A DNA stretch of 64,000 nt. It comes from Siphonodentalium dalli (taxonomy: Eukaryota; Mollusca; Scaphopoda; Gadilida; Siphonodentaliidae). Where the stretch lies: contig CP136069.1 in assembly GCA_032622095.1 (NCBI GenBank), positions 126,251,450-126,315,449 of the forward strand, written 5' to 3'. Under the pieces are notes generated by a model that was given only the letters and a program-made list of their open reading frames with translations, was not told the DNA's origin and did no database searches. The position numbers were made by a program, and so were the translations under genes. This document shows positions 5,180-52,299 of the stretch, one piece after another (position 1 is the stretch's first letter; each line of letters begins with the position of its first letter).

Positions 5180-5520
5180 AAATTCTCCATAGGGTTAAGT
5201 GTTAAATTTTGATCGCAACTGTAGCCAGCAAGAATTAGCTGATCACATCCATTCTTTTTAAAACTGCGACTGTATTTCATACTTAGTATTTTTTAGGAAT
5301 ATCAGAACGTGCATACCATCATACGCAAAATGGCGCCATTTATCCAAAGTACTAGAATCTCCATAGGGCTCAGTGTTAAATTTTGATCACAACTGTAGCC
5401 AACAAGAATGAACCGATCACATCAAAAATACATGTAATGGTCATGTCTAGTAGTTTGGAGAAGTTTAAAATCGCACCTATCACCATACGCCAGATGGCAC
5501 CATCTATCGTTTTCTGTAAA
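5180..5520. repeat. Two-copy tandem repeat, ~175 bp period
   Basis: TCTCCATAGGG followed by GTGTTAAATTTTGATC and CAACTGTAGCCA occurs near 5,186 and again near 5,360. Each copy is followed about 120 bp later by a CATACGC-ATGGC-CCAT-TATC stretch. The copies are diverged by substitutions and small indels. Confidence 0.75.
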
Positions 5521-6590
5521 TACGAAACGCTCTCTAAATGATGTTGACCCCGATTTAGGCCGACCCGCCAAAATTCAAGAATGGAAACAAGTCAATCCTG
5601 AAAACACACCTACTATGTATACACAAGAAAACCATAGTCAGAAATGGTAACGCCACCAAGATTATGGTATTACATATAAATAGAAATTATAAAAAATACA
5701 TAAAATATTTTGATAACAATTGCGTTTAAACAAGTAATCCTTCAAATTATTACTAACAAAGTAAACGACTGTGGGGTCACGCAACAGATTATAAAGACTT
5801 GGACTTAGTATACTGTAAATACTAAAATTTAAATGAAATAATTAAAAGATAAAATTTAGCAAGTAGTAAAAGTTAATTTTCTCATTTTTGTTTTGGTTAA
5901 ATAAAGCAATAATTTAAATGTAACATTTGGTTTTTAAAAAATGATTGACCGTGGCTCTTCCAATAATTGCGCGACTGACCTGGTCAATTGTTCTTAAGAA
6001 GTTGTTTTGAGAATTACTATGGAGGGAAATAGTTGTGGCTGTGGCTTCGCAAGTAATTACCTTGGTGACGTGATGTTAACAAATCTGAACTCCAGTTAAC
6101 CAAGGACGCTTTATACCAAATATAAGGTGAATTATTAATTCTTTAGAAGTTGTTTTAAGATTTACTATGGAGGGAAAGAATTGTGGTGCTGGCTTCGCAA
6201 CTATTTGACCTCATTGTAACAAATATAAATATTAGTCACTCAGGCAATAGATGTATCTATTCTGTATATTAACTTATTGGGTCTTACGTGTCTTGAGATG
6301 TCTAAATAGTTTTCGATGGACAGATCGCGCAAGGGACCCACGCCAATCTTCTCTGTTGGGATTCCAATTGTTGGCTCATTAAATAGGCACATATGCTTAA
6401 GATACAGTCGCACGCTCCCGTAAGTCGGGTTTTGATTCCAGTTAATGAAAATATCATTGAAATAATCGGTTTCCCCCAATAAACATCCATATATTGAATA
6501 TACATGTTTTGGAGCAGAATTAGGCAGTCCATATTGGACGCCATCATGGAATTTATTTTGTTTTGTTTTAATTTTCACACATAATTATTA
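5521..6590. repeat. AT-rich stretch with a ~145 bp two-copy repeat
   Basis: GAAGTTGTTTT followed by TTACTATGGAGGGAAA and a GTGGCT/GCTGGCTTCGCAA stretch occurs at about 5,999-6,060 and 6,146-6,205. Around it the sequence is AT-rich and unassigned. The open frames at 6,240-6,578 on the minus strand are not supported as genes. Confidence 0.55.
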
Positions 6591-6638
6591 GTTATATGGA
6601 TGGAGTTCTCATTAAACCTCACATCCTTGTATTGATTA

Positions 6639-6767
6639 CAGTAATACCCAAAGTAATTGACCACTTAACCACATCATAATTATTGGTAATTTTTCAGGAT
6701 TTGAAATCCTGAAAATTTACCAATAATTTTGCTGTGGTCAAGTGGTCAATTACTTTGGACATTACTG
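6639..6767. mobile_element. Palindromic CAGTAAT/ATTACTG MITE, copy 1
   Basis: A near-perfect hairpin of 129 bp flanked by TA. It begins CAGTAATACCCAAAG and ends with the inverted equivalent. The arms contain TTGACCACTTAACCACA and TTTTTCAGGATTT. It belongs to the same family as the copies at 39.9, 43.2 and 44.8 kb. The TA flanks agree with Tc1/mariner-type target use, but no family was confirmed. Confidence 0.85.
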
Positions 6768-6813
6768 TATGAGGATTGAGTTATCATTAAACCTCAACTC
6801 CTTATATTGGTTA

Positions 6814-6938
6814 CAGTAATGCCCAAAGTAATTGACCACTTAACCACAGCAGAATTATGTATTTTTTCAGCATTTACAATCCTCAAATTACCCATTATTC
6901 TGCTGTGGTTAAGTGGTCAATTGCTTTGAACATTACTG
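6814..6938. mobile_element. Palindromic CAGTAAT/ATTACTG MITE, copy 2
   Basis: Same hairpin as copy 1, flanked by TA. The spacer between copies (GATTGAGTTATCATTAAACC and onward) is itself repeated. The three copies therefore arose by tandem duplication of element plus flank with a ~171-175 bp period, not by three insertions. Confidence 0.85.
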
Positions 6939-6984
6939 TATGATGATTGAGTTATCATTAAACCTCAAATCCTTATATTGGTTA

Positions 6985-7113
6985 CAGTAATGCTCAAAGT
7001 AATTGACCCTTTAACCACAGCATAATTATGGGTAATTTTTCAGGATTTAGAATCATGAAAAAATACACACAATTTTGCTGTGGTTAAGTGATGAATTACT
7101 TTGGACATTGCTG
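6985..7113. mobile_element. Palindromic CAGTAAT/ATTACTG MITE, copy 3
   Basis: Third tandem copy of the hairpin element. It is slightly more diverged in the right arm (TTGGACATTGCTG instead of TTGGACATTACTG). Confidence 0.85.
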
Positions 7114-7379
7114 TATGTAGATGGAGTTAAACCTCACATCAGTGTGTTTGGGGATTTGGACCTTGACTTGGGACCTTTGGTTTTTAACGCAACAAATGCG
7201 CGTACACCTTACACACAAATGTTTTATGTAACCAGAGTTTTTCTTGGATAAGATGAGTTTGAAGCCTGCTTACATTTCAAAATGTTGTCAGTTTTGTATT
7301 GTCTGCAGCGGATCCCGACGCGTTGAAGCAAAAGTTACAAAAGATAAAATGTGTATGTGACGAGACTATAATACAAATG

Positions 7380-8120
7380 AAAAAATAATTTGAGGGAGGG
7401 GTGGGCGATACAGGGAACTAAGGGTTGAACCGATATAAATTTGTAGAGCAATAACGACCAATGTTGACATATTATGCATATCAACTCTACTGTTGCAACA
7501 AGGCTATACAATAGGGGGGTGCCAGAATCTTAGTCATCTCTATATAGTGCCAGAATAGTCATTTATGGAGTTCTATAAGATGTTGGGTTGGTTATATGGA
7601 CTCAGAGAAAAAAGGGGTTTGTACCGATGAAGTTGATGAACTGACATAAATTAGTGGATCGATGTTGCCATGTAATGCATCGTGATCGACTGTACTAAAG
7701 CAGCAATTATATAAAATTGGGGGGGGGGGGTCTGAAATTATCTCTATAGTTGGCACCAGGATTATATAGAAAGGAATAGCAATTGATATACATATAAGGC
7801 ATACTATAGTAATACCATAGACATATAAGTACAAGTATCACGATATAAAATATTACGTAACATGACTATACACCGATGAAAGAAATAAATAAATTGGACC
7901 GGGATTAGAGGTTGGGTTGGTTATATGTGGATAATTGGATATGGAATTCATACCGATGAAACGATACAAATTAGTGGAGCGATAAAGACACTTACTGACT
8001 TAGTCAGGCTACGCGGGGGAAATAGGGGTTGTTACGATAGACCGAAATAAATTTGTCAAGTGATAATGACCAATGTTGACGTATAAAGTAACGCGACTGT
8101 ACTGTCACACAATTATCAGG
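7380..8120. repeat. Degenerate repeats with a CCGATGAA / AAATTAGTGG motif
   Basis: Recurring order of ACCGATxxAA, AxAxAAATTxGTxGAxCGATAAxGxCxAATGTTGAC and (in two copies) a CGACTGTACT word, seen near 7,429, 7,622, 7,871, 7,950 and 8,034. Spacing is irregular. It includes a poly-G run at about 7,721-7,730. Confidence 0.5.
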
Positions 8121-8139
8121 TAGAACCGGTCAAATATGA

Positions 8140-8375
8140 CAGGGTACAGCACGTAATTATTTCCTAGATCGAAGAAATGATTTTTTTTTTCGATGATAAA
8201 ATTTAACATTAAAATTGATTTATGTCTATAAAACTGTCATTTTTCAAAATTTTGAGCTGAAACTTGGTGTGTATGTGTATAATACTACTATATTCTTAAA
8301 ATGACAGAGTTCAGCGCGTAATTATGTTTTAGATGGAAGAAATTGAATTTGTTTTCGATAACAAATTTACAGCGT
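8140..8375. repeat. Two-copy repeat, ~165 bp period
   Basis: AGxGCGTAATTAT-TT-TAGAT-GAAGAAAT followed by TTTTCGAT(A)A occurs near 8,149 and 8,314. Diverged copies with an AT-rich spacer. Confidence 0.55.
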
Positions 8376-8636
8376 GTACGGCCTACGGGTCATTGAGTAT
8401 GCTCAATTTTTGTAAACAAACTTTTATCAATAGCCGTTTTGGTCAAACTAAACCTTCTTCGACCGGGACAGCAGATCCGAATAGTAGCTAAGATGTATTT
8501 AGATAGAATTATCAAAAGAATATGACCGATCAGGGTACATTTTAACAGAATAGAGTGGAGAAATCTTGGTGATAATTCCAGAAAATAAAGATGTAGGAGA
8601 ATCACAATTAAACTTCCCACAATGCACTTCACTAAA

Positions 8637-9083
8637 CCAGGGGTTCGCAATGGGTTACACATTATTTTCAGTCTATCAGATTATTTATATTTTCAACAAC
8701 AAGTGACTTTAAGTTTACAATTTCAGCCTGTCCTGACTCTATCGATACGATTTAACACATTTTCAAAAACGTATTATACACCGGTGGCGTTAACTTTACA
8801 ATTTAAGCATCTACGTGATTCTATCGGTACGATTGAGTAAGGTACAAACAAGAATACATCAGGGGCTCCCAATGGGTTATATATTATTTTCAGTCTATCA
8901 AATTATTTATATTTTCAACAACATATTATTACACCGGTGACTTTAAGTTTACAATTTCAGCCTGTCCTGACTCTATCGATACGATTTATCATATTTTCAT
9001 AAACATATTATACACCGGTGGCGTTAACGTTACAATTTCGGCATCTACGTGATTCTATCGGTACGATTGAGTAAGGTACACAA
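8637..9083. repeat. Two-copy direct tandem repeat, ~220 bp unit
   Basis: The unit starts at CAGGGGTTCGCAATGGGTTA (first copy) and CAGGGGCTCCCAATGGGTTA (second copy). It runs through TTTCAGCCTGTCCTGACTCT, TATACACCGGTGGCGTTAAC and GATTCTATCGGTACGATTGA. Copies 8,637-8,854 and 8,857-9,083 are close to identical apart from small indels. Short open frames on both strands follow the repeat and are not credible genes. Confidence 0.85.
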
Positions 9084-9367
9084 AATCTCCAAGAATACAT
9101 TCGCCCTGTACACCACACAATATCAAACTCACAGAAGCTAGAAACACCACAGGTGGCGTAATAATCCGTTTTCAGATCGCTTTTAACAAACCAAAAATGC
9201 AAAATAACAATTAGGACTATTAGTTAATTTCACTGCAGCGCTATACCTCTTTATTTCCGAATTAAACATTACTCTTTTTTATGAGAGCGACACTTCAGCT
9301 ACATTCCATCTGATTCAAACATTGATTATCTTTAGCGTGCGCTGGTCATGTTATCTTGCCAGCACGA
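9084..9367. other. Unassigned DNA
   Basis: Nothing recognised. Confidence 0.5.
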
Positions 9368-10150
9368 CCCATATAAAATGTACCCGGTAGAACTGGTAAA
9401 ACTGGGGATTTACTCGATTTAACCCCTGACATATCCCAGTATACCCGGATCAAATAATAATTTACCTTGGTACAACACATGTAAAAGCCATTACACCGGG
9501 AATAATTTTATACCTGTAAATACAAATGGTATTTACTAATTGGTGGGAACAAATTTGTGTTAAATATCACAGTGGTTTCATAGTACAGCGTAAACTGAGG
9601 GTTATTATTTGTATAGTAATTTATGAATATATCAACATTGCATTAATAGTTTAGCAATTAAGTTTCATCGCCTCTCAATCATACCATTTCGTCCGAATAC
9701 GGATACTGCGACCGGGGGTGACACGTTGTGGTGTTGGGTGGCTTACTGGGTGTCTCCCCCGCCAACTTTGGTCAAAATATTATTTCAACAGTTGGAAATT
9801 TCATTCTTTCCTGAATTTTCTGTACATATTTGGGGGTTTATGGGTCAAATATTAAAAGACAACATGACCTTCTAACACTAAGAAATAATTTTTTTCTCCA
9901 ATTATTTTCTATATTCCAGGACAGAAAATGTGGCTATTTTTAAAATGAGAAGAAATTACCTCACTGGAAATGTAGTTGCAAGGTATACCGGTACAATACA
10001 TAGGCACTAAACATAATGAGTATTTTTAGTTCCTATATCATGTAGCTAGTATAACTTGCAACTATATGTTACTTGCCTGGTGGAATTTGCAAGTGTTTGT
10101 AATCAAACTTTTAACCAAACTCATGATAGTAAGTGCTAACGCATACTGTA
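9368..10150 (+). mobile_element. Left part of an old, internally deleted relative of the 19.6 kb element
   Basis: Position 9,368 begins CCCATATAAAATGTACC, which is the first 17 bp of the terminus of the 33,416-53,055 element minus one A. The following ~170 bp has the same degenerate ACCCxGG/TTTACC texture. From about 9,822 the sequence matches 51,561 onward (TTTGGGGGTTTATG, AGACAACATG, CCTTCTAACACTAAGAAATAAT). Near 9,955-10,130 it matches 51,845-52,080 (ACCTCACTG, GTAGTTGCAAGGTA, ACTTGCCT, CAAGTGTTT). The left end is thus fused to right-side sequence, as expected for a deletion derivative. Inferred from shared words only. Confidence 0.6.
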
Positions 10151-10346
10151 TTATTATAGAGGATCTGCAACGAGTCCTTAGTTTATAGCGTAATTTACAA
10201 AACGTGTCCAGTAAATTAGGTCCTGACAGAGCCTTTGACGAATTCGAGAACTAATTTACTCGACGAGTTTTGTAAATTCTGATATGAACTGGGAACGAGT
10301 TGTAAATTATATTAATTACGCGATACAAAACCTCGACAAAACATAC
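10151..10346. other. Flank of the giant foldback element, with a small hairpin
   Basis: Contains TTTACAAAAC (about 10,195) and its inverted form GTTTTGTAAA (about 10,268), a possible short foldback. The last 8 bp (10,339-10,346, AAACATAC) are the left target-site duplication of the element at 10,347-22,571. Confidence 0.6.
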
Positions 10347-10393
10347 AACTCCATGAATTCAGTTCCCAGTTCCCTGTTCCCTATTCTCCTAAA
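10347..10393 (+). repeat. Left terminal inverted repeat of the foldback element
   Basis: The sequence pairs with 22,525-22,571 in inverted orientation, except for a 6-bp duplication (TTCCCTG-TTCCCT) present only on the left. Confidence 0.8.
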
Positions 10394-13300
10394 ATTGCAC
10401 TTTCGTTACTAAATCGGCTGCGTAGTCAGAGTCATAGTGGCCACCCGGAATCCTTGTATTTTCGTGCGGTGCCACCCAGCGAGCATATATAGGAAAGTCA
10501 CGCGACCACGCAGCCCCTCCCAAATTTTCGAAAATTGGACTGAAGTCGTACATGAAGCTAAAAATTGCACTTTTTGTTCCTAAATCGGCTGCGTAGCCCC
10601 CGGGAATCCTTGTATTATTGTGCGGTGCCACCCAGCGGGCATCTATAGGAAAGTCACGCGACCACTCCCAAATTTTCGAAAATTGGGCTGAAGTCGTGCA
10701 TGGGATGTCAAAATAGCACGTTTCGTTACTAAATCGGCAACGTAGCCAGAGTCATGGTGGCCACCGGGAAACCTTGTATTTTCGTGCGGTGCCACCCAGC
10801 GGGCATCTATATGAAAGTCACGCGACCACGCAGTCCCTCCCAAATTTTCGAAAATTGGGCTGAAGTCGTGCATGGAGCTAAAAATTGCACTTTTTGTTCC
10901 TAAATCGGCTGCGTAGCCAGAACCATGGTGGCCACCCGGGAAACCTTGTATTTTCGTGCGGTGCCACCCAGCGGGCATCTATATGAAAGTCACGCGACCA
11001 CGCAGTCCCTCCCAAATTTTCGAAAATTGGGCTGAAGTCGTGCATGGAGCTAAAAATTGCACTTTTTGTTCCTAAATCGGCTGCGTAGCCAGAACCATGG
11101 TGGCCACCCGGGAATCCTTGCATTTTCGAGCGGTATCACCCAGCGGGCATCTATAGGAAAGTCACGCGACCACGCAGCCCCTCCCAAATTTTCGAAAATT
11201 GGGCTGAAGTCGTGCATGGGGTGTCAAAATAACACTTTTTGTTCCTAAATCGGCTGCGTAGCCAGAACGATGGTGGCCACCCGGGAATCCTTGTATTTTT
11301 GTGCGGTGCCACCCAGCGGGCATCTATAGGAAAGTCACGCGACCATGCAGCCCCTTCCGAATTTTCTAAAATTCAGCACTTTTCGTTACTAAATCGGCAG
11401 CGTAGCCAGAGTCATGGTGGCCACCGGGAATCCTTGTATTTTCGTGCGGTGCCTCCCAGCGGGCATATATAGGAAAGTCACGCGACCACGCAGCCCCTCC
11501 CAATTTTTCGAAAATTGGGCTGAAGTCGTGCATGGAGTTAAAAATAGCACTTTTTGTTCCTAAATCGTCTGCGTAGCCAGAACCATGGTGGCCACCCGGG
11601 AATCCTTGCATTTTCGTGCGGTGCCACCCAGCGGGCATCTATAGGAAAGTCACGCGACCACGCAGCCCCTCCAAAATTATCGAAATTTGGGCTGAAGTCG
11701 TGCATGGGGTGTCACAATAGCACTTTTTGTTCCTAAATCGACTGCGTAGCCAGAACCATGGTGGCCACCCTGGAATCCTAGTATTTTGGTGCGGTGCCAC
11801 CCAGCAGGCATTTATAGGAAAGTCACGCGACCATGCAGCCCCTTCCAAACTTTCGAAAATTGGGCTGAAGTCGTGCATGGGGTGTCAAAATAGCCCTTTT
11901 CGTTACTAAATCGGCTGCGTAGTCAGAGTCATAGTGGCCACCCGGAATCCTTGTATTTTCGTGTGGTGCCACCCAGCTGTCATCTATAGGAAAGACACGC
12001 GGCCACGCAGCCCCTCCCAAATTTTCGAAAATTGGACTGAAGTCGTACATGAAGCTAAAAATTGCACTTTTTGTTCCTAAATCGGCTGCGTAGCCCCCGG
12101 GAATCCTTGTATTATTGTGCGGTGCCACCCAGCGGGCATCTATAGGAAAGTCACGCGACCACTCCCAAATTTTCGAAAATTGGACTGAAGTCGTACATGA
12201 AGCTAAAAATTGCACTTTTTGTTCCTAAATCGGCTGCGTAGCCCCCGGGAATCCTTGTATTATTGTGCGGTGCCACCCAGCCGGCATATATAGGAAAGTC
12301 ACGCGACCACGCAGCCCCTTCCAAATTTTCGAAAATTGGGCTGAAGTCATGCATGGGGTGTCAAAATAGCACTTTTCGTTATTAATCGGCTGCGTAGCCA
12401 GAGTCATGGTGGCCACCCGGGAATCCTTGTATTTTCGTGCGGTGCCACCCAGCGGGCATCTATATGAAAGTCACGCGACCACGCAGTCCCTCCCAAATTT
12501 TCGAAAATTGGGCTGAAGTCGTGCATGAAGCTAAAAATTGCACTTTTTGTTCCTAAATCGGCTGCGTAGCCCCCGGGAATCCTTGTATTCTTGTGCGGTG
12601 CCACCCAGCGGGCATCTATAGGAAAGTCACGCGACCACGCAGCCCCTCCCAAATTTTCGAAAATTGGGCTGAAGTCGTGCATGGGGTGTCAACATAGCAC
12701 TTTTCGTTACTAAATCGGCAGCGTAGCCAGAGTCATGGTGGCCACCGGGAATCCTTGTATTTTCGTGCGGTGCCACCCAGCCGGCATATATAGGAAAGTC
12801 ACGCGACCACGCAGCCCCTCCCAAATTTTCGAAATTTGGGCTGAAGTCGTGCATGGGGTGTCACAATAGCACTTTTTGTTCCTAAATCGACTGCGTAGCC
12901 AGAACCATGGTGGCCACCCTGGAATCCTAGTATTTTGGTGCGGCGCCACCCAGCAGGCATTTATAGGAAAGTCACGCGACTATGCAGCCCCTTCCAAACT
13001 TTCGAAAATTGGGCTGAAGTCGTGCATGGGGTTGTCAAAATAGCCCTTTTCGTTACTAAATCGGCTGCGTAGTCAGAGTCATATTGGCCACCCGGAATCC
13101 TTGTATTTTCGTGCGGTGCCACCCAGCTGTCATCTATAGGAAAGTCACGCGACCACGCAGCCCCTCCCAAATTTTCGAAAATTGGACTGAAGTCGTACAT
13201 GAAGCTAAAAATTGCACTTTTTGTTCCTAAATCGGCTGCGTAGCCACCGGGAATCCTTGTATTATTGTGCGGTGCCACCCAGCGGGCATCTATAGGAAAG

Positions 13301-15790
13301 TCACGCGACCACTCCCAAATTTTCGAAAATTGGGCTGAAGTCGTGCATGGGGTGTCAAAATAGCACTTTTCGTTACTAAATCGGCAACGTAGCCAGAGTC
13401 ATGGTGGCTACCGGGAAACCTTGTATTTTCGTGCGGTGCCACCCAGCGGGCATCTATAGGAAAGGCACGCGACCACGCAGTCCCTCCCAAATTTTCGAAA
13501 ATTGGGCTGAAGTCGTGCATGGAGCTAAAAATTGCACTTGTTGTTCCTAAATCGGCTGCGTAGCCAGAACCATGGTGGCCACCCGGGAATCCTTGCATTT
13601 TCTTGCGGTACCACCCAGCGGGCATCTATAGGAAAGTCACGCGACCACGCAGCCCCTCCCCAATTTTCGAAAATTGGGCTGAAGTCGTGCATGGGGTGTC
13701 AAAATAGCACTTTTCGTTACTAAATCGGCTGCGTAGCCAGAGTCATGGTGGCCACCTGGGAATCCTTGTATTTTCGTGCCGTGCCACCCAGCGGGCATCT
13801 ACAGGAAAGTCACGCGATCACGCAGCCCCTCCCAATTTTTCGAAAATTGGTCTGAAGTCGTGCATGGTGATAAAAATTGCACTTTTTGTTCCTAAATCGG
13901 CTGCGTAGACAGAACAATGGTGGCCACCCGGGAATCCTTGCATTTCGTGCGGTATCACCCAGCGGGCATCTATATGAAAGTCACGCGACTACGCAGCCCC
14001 TCCCAAATTTTCGAAAATTGGGCTGAAGTCGTGCATGGGGTTTCACAATAGCACTTTTTGTTCCTAAATCGACTGCGTAGCCAGAACCAAGGTGGCCACC
14101 CGGGAATCCTAGTATTTTGGTGCGGTGCCACACAGCAGGCATTTATAGGAAAGACACGCGACCATGCAGCCCTACCCAAATTTTCGAAAATTGGGCTGAA
14201 GTCGTGCATGGGGTGTCAAAATAGCACTTTTCGTTACTAAATCGGATGCGTAGCCAGAGTCATGGTGGACACCCTGGAATCCTTGTAGTTTCGTGCGGTG
14301 CCACCCAGCGGGCATCTATAGGAAGGTCACGCGACCATGCAGCCCCTTCCAAATTGTCGAAAATTGGGCTGAAGTCGTGCATGGGTTGTCAAAATAGAAC
14401 TTTTTGTTACTAAATCGGCTGCGTAGCCAGAGTCATGGTGGCCACCCGGGAATCCTTGTATTTTCGTGCGGTGCCACCCAGCGGGCATCTATAGGAAAGT
14501 CACGCGACCATGCAACCCCTTCCAAATTTTCGAAAATTGGGCTGAAGTCTTGCATGGGGTGTCAAAAGAGCACGTTTTGCTACTAAATCGGCTGCGTAGC
14601 CAGATTCATGATGGCCACCCGGGAATCCTTGTATTTTCGTGCGGTGCCACCCAGATGACATCTATAGGAAAGTCACGCGACCACGCAGCCCATCCCAAAT
14701 TTTGGAAAATTTGGCTGAAGTCGTGCATGGAGCAAACAATTGCACTTTTGTTCTAAATCGGCTGCGTAGCCAGAACCATGGTGGCCACCCGGGAATCCTT
14801 GTATTTTCGTGCGGTGCCACCCAGCGGAAATCTATAGGATAGTCATGCGACCATGTAGCCCCTCCCAAATTTTCGAAAATTGGGCTGAAGTCGTGCATGG
14901 GGTGTCAAAATAGCACGTTACTAAATCGGCTGCGTAGCCAGATTCATGGTGGCCACCCGGGAATCCTTGTATTTTCGTGCGGTGCCACCCAGCGGGCATC
15001 TATAGGAAAGTCACGCGACCATGCAGCCCCTTCCAAATTTTCGAAAATTGGGCTGAAGTCGTGCATGGGGTGTCAAAATAGCACTTTTCGTTACTAAATT
15101 GGCTGCGTAGCCAGAGTCACGGTGGCCACCCGGGAATCCTTGTACTTTCGTCCGGTGCCACTCAGCGGGCATCTATTGGAAAGTCACGCGACCACGCCGC
15201 CCCTCCGAAATGTTCGAAAATTGGGCTGAAGTCGTGCATGGGGGTGTCAAAATAGCGCTGTTCGTTACTAAATCGGCTGCGTAGCCAGTTTTATGATGGC
15301 CACCCGGGAATCCTTGTATTTTCTTGCAGTGCCACACAGCGGGCATCTATAGTAAAGTCAGGCGCCCACGCAGCCCCTCCCAAATTTTCGAGAATTGGTC
15401 TGAAGTCGTGCATGGGGTGTCAAAATAGCACTTTTCGTTACTAAATCGGCTGCGTAGCCAGAGTCATGATGGCCACCCGGGAATCCTTGTATTTTCGTGC
15501 GATGCCACCCAGCTGTTATCTATAGGAAAGTCACGCGACCACGCAGCCCCTTCAAAATTTTCGAAAATTGGGCTGCAGTCGTGCATGGGGTGTCAAAATA
15601 GCACTCGTTGTTACTAATTCGCCTGCGTAGCCAGAACCATGGCGGCCACCCGGGAATCCTTTCATTTTCGTGCGGTGCCACCCAGTGGGCATCTATAGGA
15701 AAGGGACGCGGCCATATAGCCCCTTCCAATTTTTCGAAAATTGTCCTGAAATCGTGCATGGAGCTCAAACTTGCACTTTTTGTTACTAAA
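10391..15790 (+). repeat. ~172 bp satellite, subfamily A, left arm (about 31 monomers)
   Basis: Each monomer runs TTGTTCCTAAATCGGCTGCG, GTAGCCAGAACCATGGTGGC, CACCCGGGAATCCTTGTATT, TTCGTGCGGTGCCACCCAGC, GGGCATCTATAGGAAAGTCA, CGCGACCACGCAGCCCCTCC, then AAATTTTCGAAAATTGGGCT and GAAGTCGTGCATGG. The landmark GCGTAGCC recurs at 172-173 bp. Some monomers are shortened to ~145 bp (GCGTAGCCCCCGGGAATCC variants near 10,590, 12,093, 12,238 and 12,566). Blocks of several monomers are duplicated: the rare AGCAGGCATTTATAGG variant recurs at about 11,807 and 12,955. Short open frames on both strands follow the monomer and are not genes. Confidence 0.95.
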
Positions 15791-16288
15791 TTCTCAAAAT
15801 ATAATAATAATCGTTACTAAATCGCCTATGTATGCATAACCACAGCATCTACGGGACCATCCTTTGGATTATTCTTGTGCCACCACTAATCCATCTAAAA
15901 ATCACAAACTAGGTCACATAAACTTGTCCAGCTGTTCAAAAATTTGGCGAAAGTCGTGCGTGGGGTTAAAATAGGACATTTTCGTTGCTAAATTCCTTAT
16001 GTATTCATAACCACCGAAGCCAGGGAGCTATCTTTATGGATTCTTCTTGTGCCATCATTAGTCCATTTTGAAATCACAAACAATTTTACATACGCCTGTC
16101 CAGCTGTTCACAAAATGTGCGTAAGTCGTGCGTGGGGTCAAAATAATGAAAAAATGTCATTTTTCGTTGCTAAATCGCCTGCGTAGGCATAACCATAGCA
16201 GCCACGGGGCTATCCTTGTGGATTCTTCTTGTGCCACCACTAGTCCATCTAGAAATCACAAATTGGTTCACATACGCATGTCCAGCTG
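15791..16288 (+). repeat. ~172 bp satellite, subfamily B, left arm (about 3 monomers)
   Basis: Same monomer architecture as subfamily A but strongly diverged: TCGTTGCTAAATCGCCTGCG, TAGGCATAACCATAGCAGCC, TTGTGGATTCTTCTTGTGCC, ACCACTAGTCCATCTAGAAA, and TGTCCAGCTGTTCA in place of the GACCACGCAGCCCCTCC part. Landmarks lie near 15,825, 15,996 and 16,175. It ends abruptly at about 16,288, where the core starts. Confidence 0.85.
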
Positions 16289-17398
16289 GGATTGTTTGTA
16301 ATAACAACAGACTGTCTGATGCCTATGACCTCGAGAGGTTCCCACGGGATGCTGTTTGGGTTGAGTTTGCGTCAGTACTGACTCAAAGCCATTATAAATA
16401 TTTATATTACTTTGTAATAATATATATGTTGCTGCTGCGCAATTCAGACTATTGAATCGAGGCTGGCTTACCTTCAATTATATATGTTATATTATTGTGA
16501 CAGAGTCACTAAGTAATATACATATAACAGAACAATGGCAGACTTTGGTAACCTCACATTTGATCCTGATATCAGAGCCGATAGGGATCCTCAAGATGAA
16601 ACATTGCCACTCATTGAACCGATCGACCCGACGGGCATGGGTACCCATGGCCGACTGTCATGGATACGACGGCAACAACCAGGCTGATACATCAATAACT
16701 CCTGCAGTCGGCGGTTGATTACAATTATGGCGCCCTGGCCAGAAGGGGACGAACACCAGCCCTTGGCCGCGCCCCTCAAAATTTGAGCTTGACACACGCG
16801 GACAGATCCGATTAAAGGCATATCCCGATATCAATCTCACAAACACTCGTACCAGTGAGCCCCTAGCGATATCGACGACAACCGACCGGCGGGCGGAACT
16901 GCGGCAATCCGAGAAATCTTGGGATTTGCTGACTGGCGCCCAGAAGGAAGGGGCGGGTCGCGACCAAAGGCGACCACAGCCCACCAGACAGCAAGGAATG
17001 AACTCGGCGGTGTAGCTTATGCTGCAGATAGTGTAGAGCTGCAGGACCTGGGGCAAACTGCAAAAGAGGCCTCGGATGTGGTATGGCGAATGTAGACCAA
17101 CTTCAAAGATGCCGACATTGAAGAGATCATCGGAACTATGCATGACCCCAGCTAAACCTCCGCGAAATCAGGGGCTGGACAATACAATGCAGACCATTCG
17201 AGGCGAGTTGACCAACAACCTGGCCAAACTATCCGCATTGGATTAGCACATCGCAGTGGAGAAGCGGAAACTGGATGAGGCAGACAGTGGACTGTCGATG
17301 GGAATACCAGGCGCCGCATCGCAGAGCGATGGCGCAACCTTGAAGATGAACGGGCCTCCCTCCTGGATGTCCCCGCAACGACCAGGGATGCTCTATCC
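16289..17398 (+). pseudogene. Core of the foldback element: decayed coding region of unknown family
   Basis: This 1.1 kb is not satellite and is more GC-rich than its surroundings. On the plus strand an ATG at 16,535 opens a protein-like frame beginning MADFGNLTFDPDIRADRDPQ that stops after 50 codons at 16,685-16,687. Downstream, all frames break, but protein-like pieces continue (for example one containing RAELRQSEKSWDLL and another containing IAVEKRKLDEADSG), which suggests one ancestral gene with stops and frameshifts. I do not recognise the family. A retroelement gag-like or other structural protein is possible, but that is a guess. The minus-strand frames of 161 and 142 codons here read across the same sequence and lack recognisable domains. 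Satellite orientation flips across this core, so it is the centre of the inverted repeat. Confidence 0.5.
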
Positions 17399-17610
17399 GA
17401 CTTTCGCCCAATTTTTGAACAGCTGAACGGGCGAATGTGACTTGATTTGTTATTTCTAGATGGACTAGTGGTGGCACAAGAAGAATCCATAATGATAACC
17501 CCATGGCTGCTATGGTTATGCCTACGCAGGCGATTTAGCAACGAAAAATGACCTGTTTTCATTATGTTGACACCACGCACGACTTACGCCCAATTTTTGA
17601 ACAATTTTTG

Positions 17611-17713
17611 GCCATGCCGCTCCTGTACAATATACCTATGTTCACTTTTGTATATTGTATTGTTACAAATATCTATATATTGTACAAATAAATACTACTA
17701 CTACTACTACTAC
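17611..17713 (+). mobile_element. Probable 3' tail of a CR1/L2-like non-LTR retrotransposon
   Basis: TGTACAATATACC, then TTGTATATTGTATTGTTACA, TATATTGTACAAATAAATAC and a (TAC)n tail of about eight units, inserted inside a subfamily B monomer. A TATTGTA-rich 3' UTR with AATAAA and a simple tail is usual for truncated CR1/L2-type copies. No coding part is present, so the assignment is tentative. Confidence 0.45.
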
Positions 17714-18247
17714 ATAAGGAATTTAGCAACGAAAAATGTCCTATTTTTACCCAACGCACGACTTACGCCCAATTTTTCAAAAGCTGGACAAGCTAGTTTG
17801 TGATGTTGCGATGCACTACTGGTGGAACTAGAAGATTCCACAAGGATATCCTCGTGGCTGCTACGGTTATGCCTACGCATGCGATTTAGCAACAAAAAAC
17901 GACATGTTTTCATTATTTTGACCCCATGCACGACTTACGCCAAATTGTTGAACAGCTGGACGGGCTTATGCGACTAGGTTTGTGATTTTTAGATGGACTA
18001 GTGGTGGCACAAAAGAAGCATCCACACGGATAGCCTCGTGGCTGCTATGGGTATGCCTACGCAGGCGATTTAACAACGAAAAATGACCTTTTTTCATTAT
18101 TTTGACCCCATGCACGATTAATTTTTGAACAGCTGGACAGGCGTATGTGAACCAGTTTGTGATTTCTAGATGGACTAATTGGTGCATAAGAAGAATCCAC
18201 AAGGATAGCCCCGTGGCTGCTATGGTTATGCCAACGCAGACGATTTA

Positions 18248-18600
18248 GTAACATATATCCTCGCGCGAATGCGCACATAACCGACCTATAATTTTAATTA
18301 GGTACTTAAAGTGATTATTTGGTTCTGAAATAAGCAGATAATGGAGTCATAGTCGTCATTTCGTGTTATGGCGCGATCCACAGTAAAAACACATGCTAAT
18401 GAGCGTACACCTGAAAAATTTGGCTTATTTTTGTCATTGTCCGCACATCATTTACTTAGAATCGCATTATATGAGTCGATAATGTGACTAATGGGGATTC
18501 ATTTTCAGCTCACTGTCGACTCAAAATGAGGCGATTCTAAGCAGATTATCTACCTAAAATATTGTATCGTCTCAGCAAATAATGTGCTGGTTTTCAGGAT
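18248..18600. repeat. ~350 bp segment inserted in satellite B, copy 1
   Basis: Runs from ATATATCCTCGCGCGAATGC to AATAATGTGCTGGTTTTCAG. It contains an imperfect hairpin at about 18,454-18,545 (CTTAGAATCGC with GCGATTCTAAG, and AGTCGATAATGTGA with TCACTGTCGACT). It may be a MITE captured by the array. Confidence 0.65.
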
Positions 18601-19141
18601 TAAGCAACGAACAATGTCATATTTTTACCCCACGCACGATTTACGCCCAATTGTTGAACAGCTGGACAAGTTTATATAACCTATTTTGTGATTTCTAGAT
18701 GGACTTGTGGCGGCACAAGAAGAATCCACAAGGATAGCCCCATGGCGTCTATGGTTATGCCCACGCAGGCGATTTAGCAACGAAAAATGAAATTGTTTTC
18801 ATTATTTTGACCCCACGCACGACTTACGCTCAATTTGTGAACAGCTGGACGGGTGCATGTTACTTGATTTGTGATTTCAAGATGGACTGGTGGCGGCAAA
18901 AGAAAAATCCACAAGGATATATATAGCCTCGTGACTGCTATGGTTATGCCTACGCAGGCGATTTAGCAACGAAAAATTACCTTTGTTTCATTATTTTAAC
19001 CCCATGCACGACTTAATTTTTGAACAGCTGGACAGGCGTATGTGAACCAGTTTGTGATTTCTAGATGGACTAATTGGTGCATAAGAAGAATCCACAAGGA
19101 TAGCCCCGTGGCTCGTATGGTTATGCCAACGCAGACGATTT

Positions 19142-19494
19142 AGTAACATATATCCTCGCGCGAATGCGCACATAACCGACCTATAATTTTAATTAGGTAC
19201 TTAAAGTGATTATTTGGTTCTGAAATAAGCAGATAATGGAGTCATAGTCGTCATTTCGTGTTATGGCGCGATCCACAGTAAAAACACATGCTAATGAGCG
19301 TACACCTGAAAAATTTGGCTTATTTTTGTCATTGTCCGCACATAATTTACTTAGAATCGCATTATATGAGTCGATAATGTGACTAATGGGGATTCATTTT
19401 CAGCTCACTGTCGACTCAAAATGAGGCGATTCTAAGCAGATTATCTACCTAAAATATTGTATCGTCTCAGCAAATAATGTGCTGGTTTTCAGGA
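19142..19494. repeat. ~350 bp segment inserted in satellite B, copy 2
   Basis: Almost identical to copy 1 at an offset of 894 bp, so it was duplicated together with the flanking satellite monomers and did not insert independently. Confidence 0.7.
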
Positions 19495-20219
19495 TTAAGC
19501 AACGAACAATGTCATATTTTTACCCCACGCACGATTTACGCCCAATTGTTGAACAGCTGGACAAGTTTATATGACCTATTTTGTGATTTCTAGATGGACT
19601 TGTGGCGGCACAAGAAGAATCCACAAGGATAGCCCCATGGCGTCTATGGTTATGCCCACGCAGGCGATTTAGCAACGAAAAATGAAATTGTTTTCATTAT
19701 TTTGACCCCACGCACGACTTACGCTCAATTTGTGAACAGCTGGACGGGTGCATGTTACTTGATTTGTGATTTCAAGATGGACTGGTGGCGGCAAAAGAAA
19801 AATCCACAAGGATAGCCTCGTGACTGCTATGGTTATGCCTACGCAGGCGATTTAGCAACGAAAAATTACCTTTGTTTCATTATTTTGACCCCACGCACGA
19901 CTTACGCCCAATTTTTGAACAGCTGGACAGGCGTATGTGAACCAGTTTGTGATTTCTAGATGGACTAGTGGTGGCCTAAGAAGAATCCACAACGAGAGGC
20001 CCGTTGCGTCTATGGTTATGCCTACGCAGGCGATTTTCAATGAAAAATGACCTTTTTTTCATTATTTTTATCCGATGCACGACTTACGCCCAATTTTTGA
20101 ACAGCTGGACAGGCATATGTGAACCAGTTTGGGATTTCAAGATGGACTAGTGGTGGCCAAAAAGGAATCCACAAGGACAGCCCCGTGGCTGCTATGGTTA
20201 TGCCTACGCAGGCGATTTA

Positions 20220-20505
20220 GCGACATATCCTCGAGCAAATACGCACATATTCGACCTATAATTTCAATTAGGTACATAAAGTGATTATTTGATTCTGAAA
20301 TAAGCAGATAATGGAGCCATAGTCGTCATTTTGTGTTAAGTCGCGAGCCACAGTGAAAACACAAGTTAATGAGCGTACAGCTGAACAGTCGTGAGTTGGC
20401 TTTTTTTTGTCAATGTCCGCACATAATCTGCTTAGAATCGCTTCTATATGAGTCGATAATGTGACTAATACGGTCTCCTTTTCAGCACATTATCGACTAA
20501 CGAAA
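20220..20505. repeat. ~350 bp segment, copy 3 (diverged, shortened)
   Basis: Begins ACATATCCTCGAGCAAATAC and keeps AAGTGATTATTTGATTCTGA and AGTCGATAATGTGACTAATA. It ends near CACATTATCGACT, the inverted partner of AGTCGATAATGTG. It is clearly older than copies 1 and 2. Confidence 0.6.
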
Positions 20506-20640
20506 AATGTCCTATTTTGGACAAGATTATGTGACCTAGTTTGTGATTTTTAGATGTTATAGTGGTGGCACAAGAAGATTCCGCAAGGATAGCCTCGTGT
20601 CTGCGACGGTTATGCCAACGCAGGCGATTTAGCAACGAAA

Positions 20641-22524
20641 AGTGCGATGTTGAGCTCCATGCACGACTTCAGCCCAATTTTCGAAAGATTGGAAGGAGCT
20701 ATATGGCCGCGTACCTGTCCTATAGATGCGCGCTGGGTGGCACCACACGAAAACGCAAGGATTCCCGGGTGGCCGCCATGGTTCTGGCTACAAAGCCGAT
20801 TTAGTAACGAAAAGTGCTATTTTGACACCCCATGCACGACTGCAAAGGATGGAAATGGGCTGCATGGTCGCGTCCCTTTCCTATAGATGCCCACTGGGTA
20901 GCACCGCACGAAAATATAAGTATTCCCGGGTGGCCACCATGACTCGGGCTACGCAGCCGATTTAGTAACGAAAAGTGCTATTTTGACATCCCATGCACGA
21001 CTTCAGCCCAATTTTCGAAAATTTGGGAGGGGCTGCGTGGTCGCATGACTTTCCTATAGATGCCCGCTGGGTCGCACCGCACGGAAATACAAGGATTCTC
21101 GGCTGGCCACCATGACTCTTGCTACGCAGCCGATTTAGTAACGAAAAGTGCTATTTTGACACCCCATGCACGACTTCAGCCCAATTTCCGAAAATTTGGG
21201 AGGCTGCGTGGTTGAGTGACTTTCCTATAGATGCCGGTGGGTGGTACCGCACGAAAATACAAGGATTCCCGGATGGCCACCATGACTCTGGCTACGCAGT
21301 CGACTTAGTAACGAAAAGTGCTATATTGACACCCCCATGCACGACTTCAGCCCAATTTTCGAAAATTTGGGAGGGGCTGCGTAGTCGCGTGACATTTTTG
21401 TATATGCCCGCTGGGTGGCACCGAACGAAAATACTAGGATACCCGGGTGGCCACCATGACTCTGGCTAAAGCAGCCGATTTAGTAACGAAAAGTGCTATT
21501 TTGTCACCTCATGCACGACTTCAGCCCAATGTTCGAAAATTTGGAAGGGGCTGGATGGTCGCTTGACCTTCCTATAGATGCCCGCTGGGTGGCACCTCAC
21601 GAAACTACAAGGATTCCCGGTTGGCCACCATGACTCTGGCTACGCAGCCGATTTAGTAACGAAAAGTGCTATTTTGACACCCCATGCAGACTTCAGCCCA
21701 ATTTTCGAAAATTTGGGAGGGGCTGCGTAGTCACGTGACATTCTGATATATGCCCGCTGGGTGGCACCGTACGAAAATACAAGGATACCCGGGTGGCCAC
21801 CATGGTTCTGGCTACGCAGTCGATTTAAGAACAAAAAGTGCAATTTTTAGCTCCATGCACGACTTCAGCCCAATTTTCGAAAATTTGGAAGGGGCTGCAT
21901 GGTCGCGTGCCTTTCCTATAGATGCCCGCTGGGTGGCACCTCACGAAACTACAAGGATTCCCGGGTGGCCACTATGACTCTGGCTACGCAGCCGATTTAG
22001 TAACGAAAAGTGCTATTTTGACACCCCATGCACGACTTCAGCCCAATTTTCGAAAATTTGGGAGGGCTGCGTAGTCGCGTGACTTTCCAATAGATGCCCG
22101 CTCGGTGGCACCGCACGAAAATACAAGGTTTCCCTGGTGGCCATCATGGTTCTGGCTACGCAGCCGAATTAGGAACAAAAAGTGCAATTTTTAGCACCAT
22201 GCACGACTTCAGCCCAATTTTCGAAAATTTGGGAGGGGCTGCGTGGTCGCGTGACTTTCCTATAGATGCCCGCTGGGTGGCACCACACGAAAATACAAGG
22301 ATTCCCGGGTGGCCGCTATGACTCTGGCTACGCAGCCGATTTAATAACTAAAAGTGCTATTTTGGCACCCCATGCACGACTTAAGCCCAATTTTCGAAAA
22401 TTTGGAAGGAGCTGCATGGTCTCGTGACTTTCCAATAGATGCCCGCTTAGTGGCACCGCACGAAAATACAAGGATTCCCGGGTGGCCACCATGGCTCTGG
22501 CTTCGCAGCCAATTTAGTAACAAA
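20641..22524 (-). repeat. ~172 bp satellite, subfamily A, right arm (about 11 monomers)
   Basis: Inverted copies of the left-arm monomer: CACGACTTCAGCCCAATTTT, CGAAAATTTGGGAGGGGCTG, CCTATAGATGCCCGCTGGGT, GGCACCGCACGAAAATACAA, GGATTCCCGGGTGGCCACCA, then CTGGCTACGCAGCCGATTTA. Variation between monomers matches the left arm, including the TTTTTAGCTCCATGCACGAC variant. Confidence 0.93.
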
Positions 22525-22571
22525 GTGCAATTTTAGGAGAATAGGGAACTGGGAACGGAATTCATGGAGCT
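22525..22571 (-). repeat. Right terminal inverted repeat of the foldback element
   Basis: GTGCAATTTTAGGAGAATAG, GGAACTGGGAACGGAATTCA, TGGAGCT: inverted partner of 10,347-10,393. The target duplication AAACATAC follows at 22,572-22,579. Confidence 0.8.
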
Positions 22572-22579
22572 AAACATAC

Positions 22580-24043: not shown

Positions 24044-27000
24044 GAAGGGTTGTTATGTTACACCAGCGATATAGATTTACGGGATATTTGTATTATTGAG
24101 AAATCGGTACCCCAACTGCCAGAAATATATATATATACAGCCGGTACCCCAACTGACCAGTATATAGGTTCAATATATATATTCATAATTAACTGAAAAA
24201 TGGAAGTGGGGCTATTCCGAAAATATCTAGATAGTGGAGATAGCACAATTACAAGCTGATATATGAAGGTAAAATGGTGCAACCTGTTTCCAATCCGAAA
24301 TGGTGCATAATTATACATTATGTTGGTGGCCATGAATGGCAAAAAATTGTCAAATTTGAGAAAATTGGGTAATATAGGTGACAAAATTAATCACGGTCAC
24401 CATATCGGAGAGCTTAATCACGCGTTATTCAGTAACCACCACAAATAATTGCGTAATTTAACGCTAAATGGTGGAGCTTGTTGGCTATATATGTGGTTTT
24501 TTTTCCCAAAATTACTAAGAAATTGGACCCAAAATACATCTTAAAACAGTCATTTACGGAATATAACAGCTGGTTGCCATGGATACAGAGATCCACATGG
24601 TTACCCCAACTCGTAATAGGAACGATCTAGACCAAGAACATGTCACATGTGCAGAAGGGGTGTTATGTTACACCAGCGATATAGATTTACGGGATATTTG
24701 TATTATTGAGAAATCGGTACCCCAACTGCCAGAAATATATATATATACAGCCGGTACCCCAACTGACCAGTATATAGGTTCAATATATATATTCATAATT
24801 AACTGAAAAATGGAAGTAGGGCTATTCCGAAAATATCTAGATAGTGGAGATAGCACAATTACAAGCTGATATATGAAGGTAAAATGGTGCAACCTGTTTC
24901 CAATCCGAAATGGTGCATATACATTATGTTGGTGGCCATGAATGGCAAAAAATGGTCAAATTTGAGAAAATTGGGTAATAAAGGTGACAAAATTAATCAC
25001 GGTCACCATATCGGAGAGCTCAATCACGCGTTATTCAGTAACCACCACAAATAATTGCGTAATTTAACGCTAAATGGTGGAGCTTGTTGGCTATATATGT
25101 GTTTTTTTTCCAGAATTACTAAGAAATTGGACCCAAAATACATCTTAAAACAGTCATTTACGGAATATAATAGCTGGTTGCCATGGATACAGAGATCCAC
25201 ATAGTTACCCCAACTCGTAATAGGAACGATCTAGACCAAGAACATGTCCCATGTGCAGAAGATGTGTTATGTTACACCAGCGATATAGATTTACGGGATA
25301 TTTGTCTTATTGAGAAATCGGTACCGCAACTGCCAGAAATATATATATATACAGCCGGTACCCCTACTGACCAGTATATAGGTTCAATATATATATTCAT
25401 AATTAACTGAAAAATGGAAGTGGGGCTATTCCGAAACTATCAAGATAGTGGAGATAGCACAATTACAAGCTGATATATGAAGGTAAAATGGTGCAACCTG
25501 TTTCCAATCCGAAATGGTGCATATACATTATGTTGGTGGCCATGAATGGCAAAAAATGGTCAAATTTGAGAAAATTGGGTAACAAAGATGACAAAATTAA
25601 TCACGGTCACCATATCGGAGAGCTCAATCACGCGTTATTCAGTAACCACCACAAATAATTGTGTAATTTAACGCTAAATGGTGGAGCTTGTTGGCTATAT
25701 ATGTGTTTTTTCCAGAATTACTAAGAAATTGGACCCAAAATACATCTTAAAACAGTCATTTACGGAATATAACAGCTGGTTGCCATGGATACAGAGATCC
25801 ACATAGTCACCCCAACTCGCAATAGAAACGATCGAGACCAAGAACATGTCCCATGTGCAGAAGGGATGTTATGTTACACCAGCGATATAGATTTACGGGA
25901 TATTTGTCTTATTGAGAAATCGGTACCCCAACTGCCAGAAATATATATATATACAGCCGGTACCCCAACTGACCAGTATATAGGTTCAATATATATATTC
26001 ATAATTAACTGAAAAATGGAAGTGGGGCTATTCCGAAAATATCTAGATAGTGGAGATAGCACAATTACAAGCTGATATATGAAGGTAAAATGGTGCAACC
26101 TGTTTCCAATCCGAAATGGTGCATATACATTATGTTGGTGGCCATGAATGGCAAAATATGGTCAAATTTGAGAAAATTGGGAAACAAAGGTGACAAAATT
26201 AATCACGGTCACCATATCGGAGAGCTCAATCACGCGTTATTCAGTAACCACCACGAATAATTGTGTAATTTAACGCTAAATGGTGGAGCTTGTTGGCTAT
26301 ATATGTGTTTTTTCCAGAATTACTAAGAAATTGGACCCAAAATACATCTTAAAACAGTCATTTACGGAATATAACAGCTGGTTGCCATGGATACAGAGAT
26401 CCACATAGTCACCCTAACTCGTAATAGGAACGATCTAGACCAAGAACATGTCCCATGTGCAGAAGGGATGTTATGTTACACCAGCGATATAGATTTACGG
26501 GATATTTGTCTTATTGAGAAATCGGTACCCCAACTGCCAGAAATATATATATATATACAGCCGGTACCCCAACTGACCAGTATATAGGTTCAATATATAT
26601 ATTCATAATTAACTGAAAAATGGAAGTGGGGCTATTCCGAAAATATCTAGATAGTGGATATAGCACAATTACAAGCTGATATATGAAGGTCAAATGGTGC
26701 AACCTGTTTCCAATCCGAAATGGTGCATATACATTATGTTGGTGGCCATGAATGGCAAAAAATGGTCAAATTTGAGAAAATTGGGTATTAAAGGTGACAA
26801 AATTAATCACGGTCACCATATCGGAGAGCTCAATCGCGCGTTATTCAGTATAACCACCACAAATAATTGCTTAATTTAACGCTAAATGGTGGAGCTTGTT
26901 GGCTATATATGTGTTTTTTCCAGAATTACTAAGAAATTGGACCCAAAATACATCTTAAAACAGTCATTTACGGAATATAACAGCTGGTTGCCATGGATAC

Positions 27001-30000
27001 AGAGATCCACATAGTCACCCCAACTCGTAATAGGAACGATCTAGACCAAGAACATGTCCCATGTGCAGAAGGGATGTTATGTTACACCAGCGATATAGAT
27101 TTACGGGATATTTGTCTTATTGAGAAATCGGTACCCCAACTGCCAGAAATATATATATATATACAGCCGGTACCCCAACTGACCAGTATATAGGTTCAAT
27201 ATATATATTCATAATTAACTGAAAAATGGAAGTGAGGCTATTCCGAAAATATCTAGATAGTGGATATAGCACAATTACAAGCTGATATATGAAGGTCAAA
27301 TGGTGCAACCTGTTTCCAATCCGAAATGGTGCATATACATTATGTTGGTGGCCATGAATGGCAAAAAATGGTCAAATTTGAGAAAATTGGGTAATAAAGG
27401 TGACAAAATTAATCACGGTCACCATATCGGAGAGCTCAATCGCGCGTTATTCAGTATAACCACCACAAATAATTGCTTAATTTAACGCTAAATGGTGGAG
27501 CTTGTTGGCTATATATGTGTTTTTTCCCAGAATTACTAAGAAATTGGACCCAAAATACATCTTAAAACAGTCATTTACGGAATATAACAGCTGGTTGCCA
27601 TGGATACAGAGATCCACATTGTCACCCCAACTCGTAATAGGAACGATCTAGACCAAGAACATGTCCCATGTGCAGAAGGGATGTTATGTTACACCAGCGA
27701 TATAGATTTACGGGATATTTGTCTTATTGAGAAATCAGTACCCCAACTGCCAGAAATATATATATATAAATGCAGCCGGTACCCCAACTGACCAGTATAT
27801 AGGTTCAATATATATATTCATAATTAACTGAAAAATGGAAGTGGGGCTATTCCGAAAATATCTAGATAGTGGAGATAGCACAATTACAAGCTAATATATG
27901 AAGGTAAAATGGTGAAATCTGTTTCCAATCCGAAATGGTGCATATACATTATGTTGGTGGCCGTGAATGGCAAAAAATGGTCACATTTGAGATAATTGGG
28001 TAATAAAGGTGAAAAAATTAATCACGGTCACCATATCGGAGAGCTCAATCACGCGTTATTCAGTAACCACCACAAATAATTGCGTAATTTAACGCTAATT
28101 GGTGGAACTTGTTGGCTATATATGTGTTTTTTCCATAATTACTAAGAAATTGGACCCAAAATACATCTTAAAACAGTCATTAGCGGAATATAACAGCTGG
28201 TTGCCATGGATACAGAGATCCACATAGTCACCCCAACTCGTAATAGGAACGATCTAGACCAAGAACATGTCCCATGTGCAGAAGGGATGTTATGTTACAC
28301 CAGCGATATAGATTTACGGGATATTTGACTTATTGAGAAATCGGTACCCCAACTGCCAGAAATATATATATATGCAGCCGGTACCCCAACTGACCAGTAT
28401 ATAGGTTCAATATATATATTCATAATCAACTGAAAAATGGAAGTGGGGCTATTCCGAAAATATCTAGATAGTGGAGATAGCACAATTACAAGCTGATATA
28501 TGAAGGTAAAATTGTGCAACCTGTTTCCAATCCGAAATGGTGCATATACATTATGTTGGTGGCCATGAATGGCAAAAAATTGGAAAACTGGTCAAATTTT
28601 AGAAAATTGGGTAATAAATGTGACAAAATTAATCACGGTCACCATATCGGAGAGCTCAATCACGCGTTATTCAGTAACCACCACAAATAATTGTGTAATT
28701 TAACGCTAAATGGTGGAGCTTGTTGGCTATATATGTGTTTTTTCCAGAATTACTAAGAAATTGGACCCAAAATACATCTTAAAACAGTCATTTACGGAAT
28801 ATAACAGCTGGTTGCCATAGATACAGAGATCCACATAGTCACCCCAACTCGTAATAGGAACGATCTAGACCAAGAACATGTCCCATGTGCAGAAGGGATG
28901 TTATGTTACACCAGCGATATAGATTTACGGGATATTTGTCTTATTGAGAAATCGGTACCCCAACTGCCTGAAATATATATATATATACAGCCGGTACCCC
29001 AACTGACCAGTATATAGGTTCAATATATATATTCATAATTAACTGAAAAATGGAAGTGGGGCTATTCCGAAAATATCTAGATAGTGGATATAGCACAATT
29101 ACAAGCTGATATATGAAGGTCAAATGGTGCAACCTGTTTCCAATCCGAAATGGTGCATATACATTATGTTGGTGGCCATGAATGGCAAAAAATGGTCAAA
29201 TTTGCGAAAATTGGGTAATAAAGGTGACAAAATTAATCACGGTCACCATATCGGAGAGCTCAATCGCGCGTTATTCAGTATAACCACCACAAATAATTGC
29301 TTAATTTAACGCTAAATGGTGGAGCTTGTTGGCTATATATGTGTTTTTTCCAGAATTACTAAGAAATTGGACCCAAAATACATCTTAAAACAGTCATTTA
29401 CGGAATATAACAGCTGGTTGCCATGGATACAGAGATCCACATAGTCACCCCAACTCGTAATAGGAACGATCTAGACCAAGAACATGTCCCATGTGCAGAA
29501 GGGATGTTATGTTACACCAGCGATATAGATTTACGGGATATTTGTCTTATTGAGAAATCGGTACCCCAACTGCCAGAAATATATATATATATACAGCTGG
29601 TACCCCAACTGACCAGTATATAGGTTCAATATATATATTCATAATTAACTGAAAAATGGAAGTGGGGCTATTCCGAAAATATCTAGATAGTGGATATAGC
29701 ACAATTACAAGCTGATATATGAAGGTCAAATGGTGCAACCTGTTTCCAATCCGAAATGGTGCATATACATTATGTTGGTGGCCATGAATGGCAAAAAATG
29801 GTCAAAATTGAGAAAATTGGGTAATAAAGGTGACAAAATTAATCACGGTCACCATATCGGAGAGCTCAATCGCGCGTTATTCAGTATAACCACCACAAAT
29901 AATTGCTTAATTTAACGCTAAATGGTGGAGCTTGTTGGCTATGTATGTGTTTTTTCCCAGAATTACTAAGAAATTGGACCCAAAATACATCTTAAAACAG

Positions 30001-42736: not shown

Positions 42737-42738
42737 TA

Positions 42739-52200: not shown

Positions 52201-52299
52201 CCTTAATGTTCTATTATACTAAAACAACTCCATTGATAACAATACCCCTGCATCCCATCCAAATCTACTTCATTGCCATCCTCATCATTTCACTTTGGA

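Follow-up and report, generated by a model that had tools for sequence, protein, structure and literature searches.

Foldback transposons with arms of tandem repeats have been described in several animals. The classical elements FB (Drosophila) and TU (sea urchin) have inverted tandem-repeat arms like those of the element treated here, and by their description they are set apart from it through much shorter repeats. We analysed a stretch of 64,000 nucleotides from Siphonodentalium dalli (G000:C9:126251450-126315449, hereafter the window), which lies within a 2.23-Gb genome assembled as nine contigs and holds a 12.2-kb foldback insertion with arms of satellite DNA. In structure, the insertion resembles Tetris of Drosophila virilis, a non-coding foldback with a unique outer domain, tandem repeats of ~220 bp, an inner domain and a variable middle, whose duplications measure 8-10 bp (PMC4079207; here and below, published elements are described from excerpts of the cited sources). 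Its authors place Tetris in Mutator, report that its repeats gave rise to satellite arrays, and suggest that the larger arrays may have disrupted transposition (PMC4079207). Tm1 of Meloidogyne (Mutator/Foldback) likewise has composite arms that vary in length and contain tandem repeats, duplications that are most often 9 bp long and many non-coding copies (PMC3169594). Muta1 of Aedes aegypti is an active Mutator-like 'type 2 foldback' with 8-9-bp duplications, subterminal tandem repeats and many non-autonomous derivatives (PMC5225508). In Galileo of Drosophila, the arms are long and vary independently, and one group carries ~210-bp tandem repeats in variable number (PMC3573991). How satellites arrive at new chromosomal sites is an old question. 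In this genome, hundreds of ends of a single element that carries satellite, bounded insertions, empty sites and comparable monomer order occur together, which makes movement and growth of arrays separately measurable.

Results

The foldback insertion in the window is confirmed. It is a single insertion spanning window positions 10339-22579, with a target-site duplication, inverted tips, opposed satellite arms and a 1.1-kb core. The duplicated octamer AAACATAC stands immediately outside both tips, at 10339-10346 and 22572-22579. The tips follow the form A(A/G)CTCCATGAATTC, reading AACTCCATGAATTC on the left and AGCTCCATGAATTC on the right (minus strand), and the 12-mer CTCCATGAATTC occurs once per strand in the window, at the two element ends only. 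By sequence reading and alignment, the left tip with its unique subterminal bases occupies 10347-10390 (plus strand), and the right tip lies at 22527-22571. The ~50 outermost bases of the two ends are inverted repeats of each other save for two substitutions and one 7-bp unit of the GTTCCC type.

The same order of layers is met inward from either end: tip, outer satellite of ~172 bp, diverged inner satellite of ~183 bp, and core. The satellite runs in plus orientation in the left arm (outer layer 10391-15791, inner layer 15811-16288) and in minus orientation in the right arm (inner layer 17401-20617, outer layer 20618-22526). The arms are unequal, with 32 recognised outer monomers on the left versus 11 on the right. 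Three copies of a ~345-bp repeat, all on the plus strand (18254-18598, 19149-19493 and a shorter match at 20225-20498), break up the right inner layer, whereas the left inner layer is free of this repeat. The core module (16291-17400, plus strand) recurs as a discrete block in other copies, and its reading frames are broken. A search of the window for RNA genes gave no Rfam match at gathering scores and no tRNA with ARAGORN.

The sequence-only reading of this locus had proposed a foldback-like transposable unit with satellite arms, far longer than usual, and the tips, duplications and empty sites bear this out. Its inverted tips with AAACATAC outside both and its 1.1-kb core were found in place. 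The single ~172-bp satellite that it described does run in opposed orientations around the core but consists of two layers, and the 8-bp duplication that it reported is what can be seen at the window copy, whereas other copies show 9 bp.

Empty sites were sought for the window insertion by searching the genome with a 300-bp query made of the left flank, one AAACATAC and the right flank. All 40 scored places (of 2718 candidates) span the junction, at 86-89% identity; a further 38 matches were short and inverted. Since the joined flanks match uninterrupted sequence elsewhere in the genome, empty sites with one copy of the duplication exist, the window copy lies inside a dispersed repeat of which other copies are empty, and the structure is beyond chance. 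Two of these sites, aligned base by base, are gapless through the junction and read CGACAAAACATACTTAAAT (the better one) and CGACAAAGCATACTTAAAT. Judging from these alignments and from the 9-bp duplications seen at other copies, AAACATACT may have been duplicated at first, the left junction having later lost one base.

The ends are those of a dispersed family: a search of the genome with a 26-base tip pattern gave 182 forward and 173 reverse occurrences, while the reversed control gave none in either orientation. Among the first 100 exact ends listed, 68 form 34 adjacent convergent pairs with spans from 595 bp to 93 kb (median ~4 kb), nine of them at least 10 kb; the smallest copies measure 595 and 598 bp, and another small copy, L011, 1002 bp. 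We compared the flanks of 16 end pairs. The 9-bp duplication is exact in ten, has one mismatch in three, is unclear in one and absent in two; one counted pair, L031/L032, is not independent of the L025-L028 group because it shares flanks with it. Thirteen of the 16 pairs thus carry a duplication with at most one mismatch over 9 bp, and the inconsistent flanks without duplications that would have spoken against a transposable unit were not seen in most copies. Exact duplications flank copies of 21, 27, 29, 30 and 51 kb. Of the copies read whole by eye, the 9-bp duplication is exact in L022, L021 and L014 and has a single mismatch in L011 and L028. Three near-identical copies (L018/L019, L020 and L023) have their tips within a larger palindrome of the inner-satellite type.

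A search with the core gave 140 candidates, of which 40 were scored and yielded 54 matches; 17 of these, that of the window included, cover at least core bases 1-1093, and other core-bearing copies keep the order of layers seen in the window copy. Six core copies stand ~120-175 kb apart at G000:C7:112490597-113248105, a spacing that suggests a large tandem segmental duplication carrying the element.

Several copies are much longer than the one in the window. A 21,279-bp element on contig C1 (76845508-76866786; hereafter E21), flanked by the duplication GAGATTAGT, has 83 satellite copies in its left arm (14.5 kb) and 28 in its right arm (4.9 kb), with matches of 96% and 95%, and a remnant of core and inner layer between them. 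In a 30.5-kb element (C1, 95.27 Mb; duplication CCCCGCGGG), all ten probes fell on satellite, and the orientation flips within the fourth, ~11 kb in. All seven probes of a 27.5-kb element (C1, 53.99 Mb; duplication GAAATAATC) were satellite, with one flip. A 51-kb element (C2, 202.995 Mb; duplication CTGTTATAT) is more mixed: five of 11 probes, the outer ones, are satellite, five are non-satellite and one is part of the core.

Empty sites were found for all five insertions examined, namely the window copy, L022 and the 51-kb, 30.5-kb and 21.3-kb copies. The L022 query gave 35 matches; 32 run across the junction (five listed at 100%), and two of the three that do not are L022's own flanks. All 40 scored places span the junction for the 51-kb insertion (of 50 candidates; 17 at 100% over 87 bp), for the 30.5-kb insertion (of 502 candidates; 25 at 100%) and for E21 (of 849 candidates; from query base 18-33 to 86-87). 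The queries for these three large copies held only ~48 + 39 flanking bases, so that identity is a weak clock here.

Movement and growth of arrays can be told apart most clearly in L014 (7337 bp) and L022 (5420 bp), which consist of tips and outer satellite and nothing else. Their flanks share no similarity, their duplications differ, and the empty sites of L022 are identical to its flanks. The left arms of the two elements are of one satellite type and the right arms of another: the same arm differs by 0.042-0.043 between elements, versus 0.072-0.075 for opposite arms within one element. The monomers follow the same order in either arm (none of 200 shuffles per arm reached the collinear score), and the two elements align in one piece over 5336 bp at 97.6%, centre and both arms included. 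An ordered array of ~5.3 kb with both arms has therefore moved as a unit, either between these two sites or from a shared source to each of them. Blocks of 7 and 4 monomers distinguish the two elements, and in E21 a run of 23 monomers recurs 35 monomers further on; arrays therefore also grow or shrink by blocks. The sequence-only reading had left open whether the array moved or was built inside one unit, and there are signs of both. Homogenisation between the arms of an element was considered as a rule and rejected, the arms of L014 and L022 being nearer to the same arm of the other element than to their own partners; the arms of E21 are alike (0.038).

Satellite also occurs away from paired ends. 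Searches with a satellite 26-mer gave 1023 and 1674 occurrences in the genome (control 0). The first 100 places listed form six clusters, all on C1, of which two lie between paired exact tips (52 places), one by a single tip (1 place) and three have no exact tip (47 places). About half of this small sample is thus tied to exact tips, and the remaining places may belong to copies whose ends have decayed or to independent arrays. Among the tipless clusters, the one at 63.32 Mb has no tip at its start and runs out in the inner layer, like a broken copy, and the one at 64.60 Mb has a core nearby. Some satellite types escape the 26-mer: none of the places listed falls in the 27.5-kb element, yet all its probes were satellite.

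Several candidates for coding or binding functions were tried and rejected. The core is not a recognisable transposase gene, its frames being broken in all six copies translated and Pfam giving no match for five pieces of the window core or for a sixth taken from the adjoining stretch in L023. An extra 4669-bp stretch in the L018/L019 core (element bases 5044-9712), which carries its own minisatellites, was considered as a lost transposase; due to its short frames (longest 134 aa), tandem repeats and inverted ends, it is probably another mobile-element insertion. In the middle of the 51-kb copy, 7 kb were read and contained two frames above 100 aa (101 and 208 aa); the only Pfam hit to the longer of these (in L099, G000:C2:203006400-203013399) was DUF3769, whose E of 0.061 misses the cut-off. 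Copies of the tip within monomers were rejected as extra binding sites: of 269 monomers, 14 contain the 9-bp tip as its reverse complement (29 if one mismatch is allowed) and none contains it in forward orientation, and reversed controls gave none. The Mutator-type transposase domain PF10551 is common in the genome (150 scored of 813 candidates); by eye, none of the matches listed falls between the end pairs listed. A search for PF03108 gave no match, as did its controls.

The window holds further repeats. Arrays of a ~606-bp repeat at 24044-33415 and 53050-56545 share orientation and are ~94% alike, and their phase suggests one array split by a 19.6-kb insertion (33416-53049). This intervening stretch has inverted ends CCATATAAAAATGTACCTGGGTAAAT and minisatellites of the ACCCAGGT type near both ends, and is perhaps another foldback-like element. 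A 2.4-kb palindrome (42881-45261, 91.9% by self-comparison) lies beside repeats of the AATTGCGCTTAAGCGC type. At 6599-7129, a 175-bp tandem repeat matches its own reverse complement and has relatives near 39.9, 43.2 and 44.8 kb.

Discussion

The element is best explained as a foldback DNA transposon of the non-autonomous kind, with satellite arrays serving as its long terminal inverted repeats, a reading to which we give a probability of roughly 0.88. Long inverted arms with variable tandem repeats, target duplications and empty sites are the features by which foldbacks are classed, and all were found here. Short unique tips close both arms, and insertion duplicates ~9 bp of target. In the proposed mechanism, everything between the tips would be cut and pasted by a transposase acting in trans, most probably a Mutator-superfamily enzyme, and the repetitive arms would gain and lose length through unequal exchange or slippage. 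A Mutator-superfamily mover is inferred because 9-bp duplications, long unequal tandem-repeat arms and the lack of a recognised gene match Mutator-type foldbacks; the duplications fall within the 8-10 bp, mostly 9 bp, of that superfamily.

A number of observations weigh against this explanation. A transposase gene was recognised in none of the copies examined, and the copies are known from assembled sequence alone. Among the first 100 ends listed, 32 have no adjacent exact partner, although the last one lacks it only because the list stops there. Two of the 16 pairs, L041/L042 and the 93-kb pair, lack a duplication and L046/L047 is unclear; the duplication of L014 sits in a tandem repeat that itself contains GAGGTTTGG; and L018/L019, L020 and L023 show no duplication at the tip, their flanks being inverted repeats of the inner-satellite type. 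E21 is not collinear with L014 or L022 (64, 129, 129 and 132 of 200 shuffles reach the score). Collinearity of the window's own arms scored 0, in a test that is powerless for arms so old and diverged.

The identity of the mover is the part of the explanation most exposed to an alternative. A foldback of the same kind could be moved by a transposase from a superfamily other than Mutator, which we consider unlikely but well worth keeping in mind: no copy examined holds a transposase, the superfamily is read solely from duplication length and arm structure, and in Galileo foldback arms arose within the P superfamily (PMC3573991). The duplications, exact at 9 bp in 10 of 16 pairs, are unlike the 7 bp described for Galileo and fit those reported for the Mutator-type foldbacks Tm1 and Muta1, and Mutator-type transposase domains are common in this genome. 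It is improbable that small foldbacks insert with few repeats and that the long arrays all grow in place and never move. The copies of 595, 598 and 1002 bp, the block duplications in E21, the 7- and 4-monomer differences between L014 and L022 and the lack of collinearity of E21 with either would suit such growth; it is contradicted for L014 and L022 only, by a monomer order shared through arms and centre over 5.3 kb at unrelated sites and by the identical empty sites of L022.

Two further accounts would do away with a cut-and-paste unit altogether. Assembling long palindromic arrays is difficult, and one might suspect that the structure is misassembled or that its ends flank an ordinary inverted satellite array by coincidence; with empty sites for five of five insertions, exact 9-bp duplications in 10 of 16 pairs and a layered plan that recurs in other copies, this is very improbable. 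Helitrons and Helentrons make no target duplication and have no long inverted arms, and the copies described here have both duplications and inverted tips. Spread by such rolling-circle transposition, or by reinsertion of satellite circles, has been proposed for satellites (PMC12628747; PMC7492417), and is extremely improbable for this family, as 9-bp target duplications and fixed inverted tips are expected of neither.

Under the foldback explanation, the L014/L022 comparison implies that satellite DNA can spread here as a transposon, at least one array having been carried from site to site. Whether this extends to the longest arrays is a more tentative matter. Whole arrays of 20-30 kb might each jump in one event, moved by a Mutator-type transposase for which the short tips suffice, in which case the satellite would have dispersed over the chromosomes as a transposon and not via unequal exchange or circle reinsertion; we rate this at somewhat short of even odds. 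Some of the long arrays lie inside host repeats that are identical to empty copies over the bases compared. That long arrays are found here between intact ends is relevant to the idea, put forward for Tetris, that such arrays disable the element carrying them.

In the literature searched, which left out most subscription papers, we found neither a foldback of comparable size nor the letters of the tips and satellite. Tm1 differs in that its arm repeats are ~14 bp long and are not satellite monomers, and in that some members have a putative transposase (PMC3169594), while Muta1 has 145-bp arms, 12-bp repeats and a known autonomous element (PMC5225508). Galileo is a P-superfamily element with 7-bp duplications and arms of at most ~1.26 kb (PMC3573991). 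The arms of Tetris reach at most 1,735 bp, and the long arrays reported for it, of up to 66 copies, are termed satellite-like (PMC4079207). Unlike in Tetris, intact tips here enclose up to 83 copies per arm at insertions with duplications and empty sites, and two sites have an ordered array in common. The plan is thus already known from foldback elements, above all from Tetris; what differs here is its scale and its mobility.

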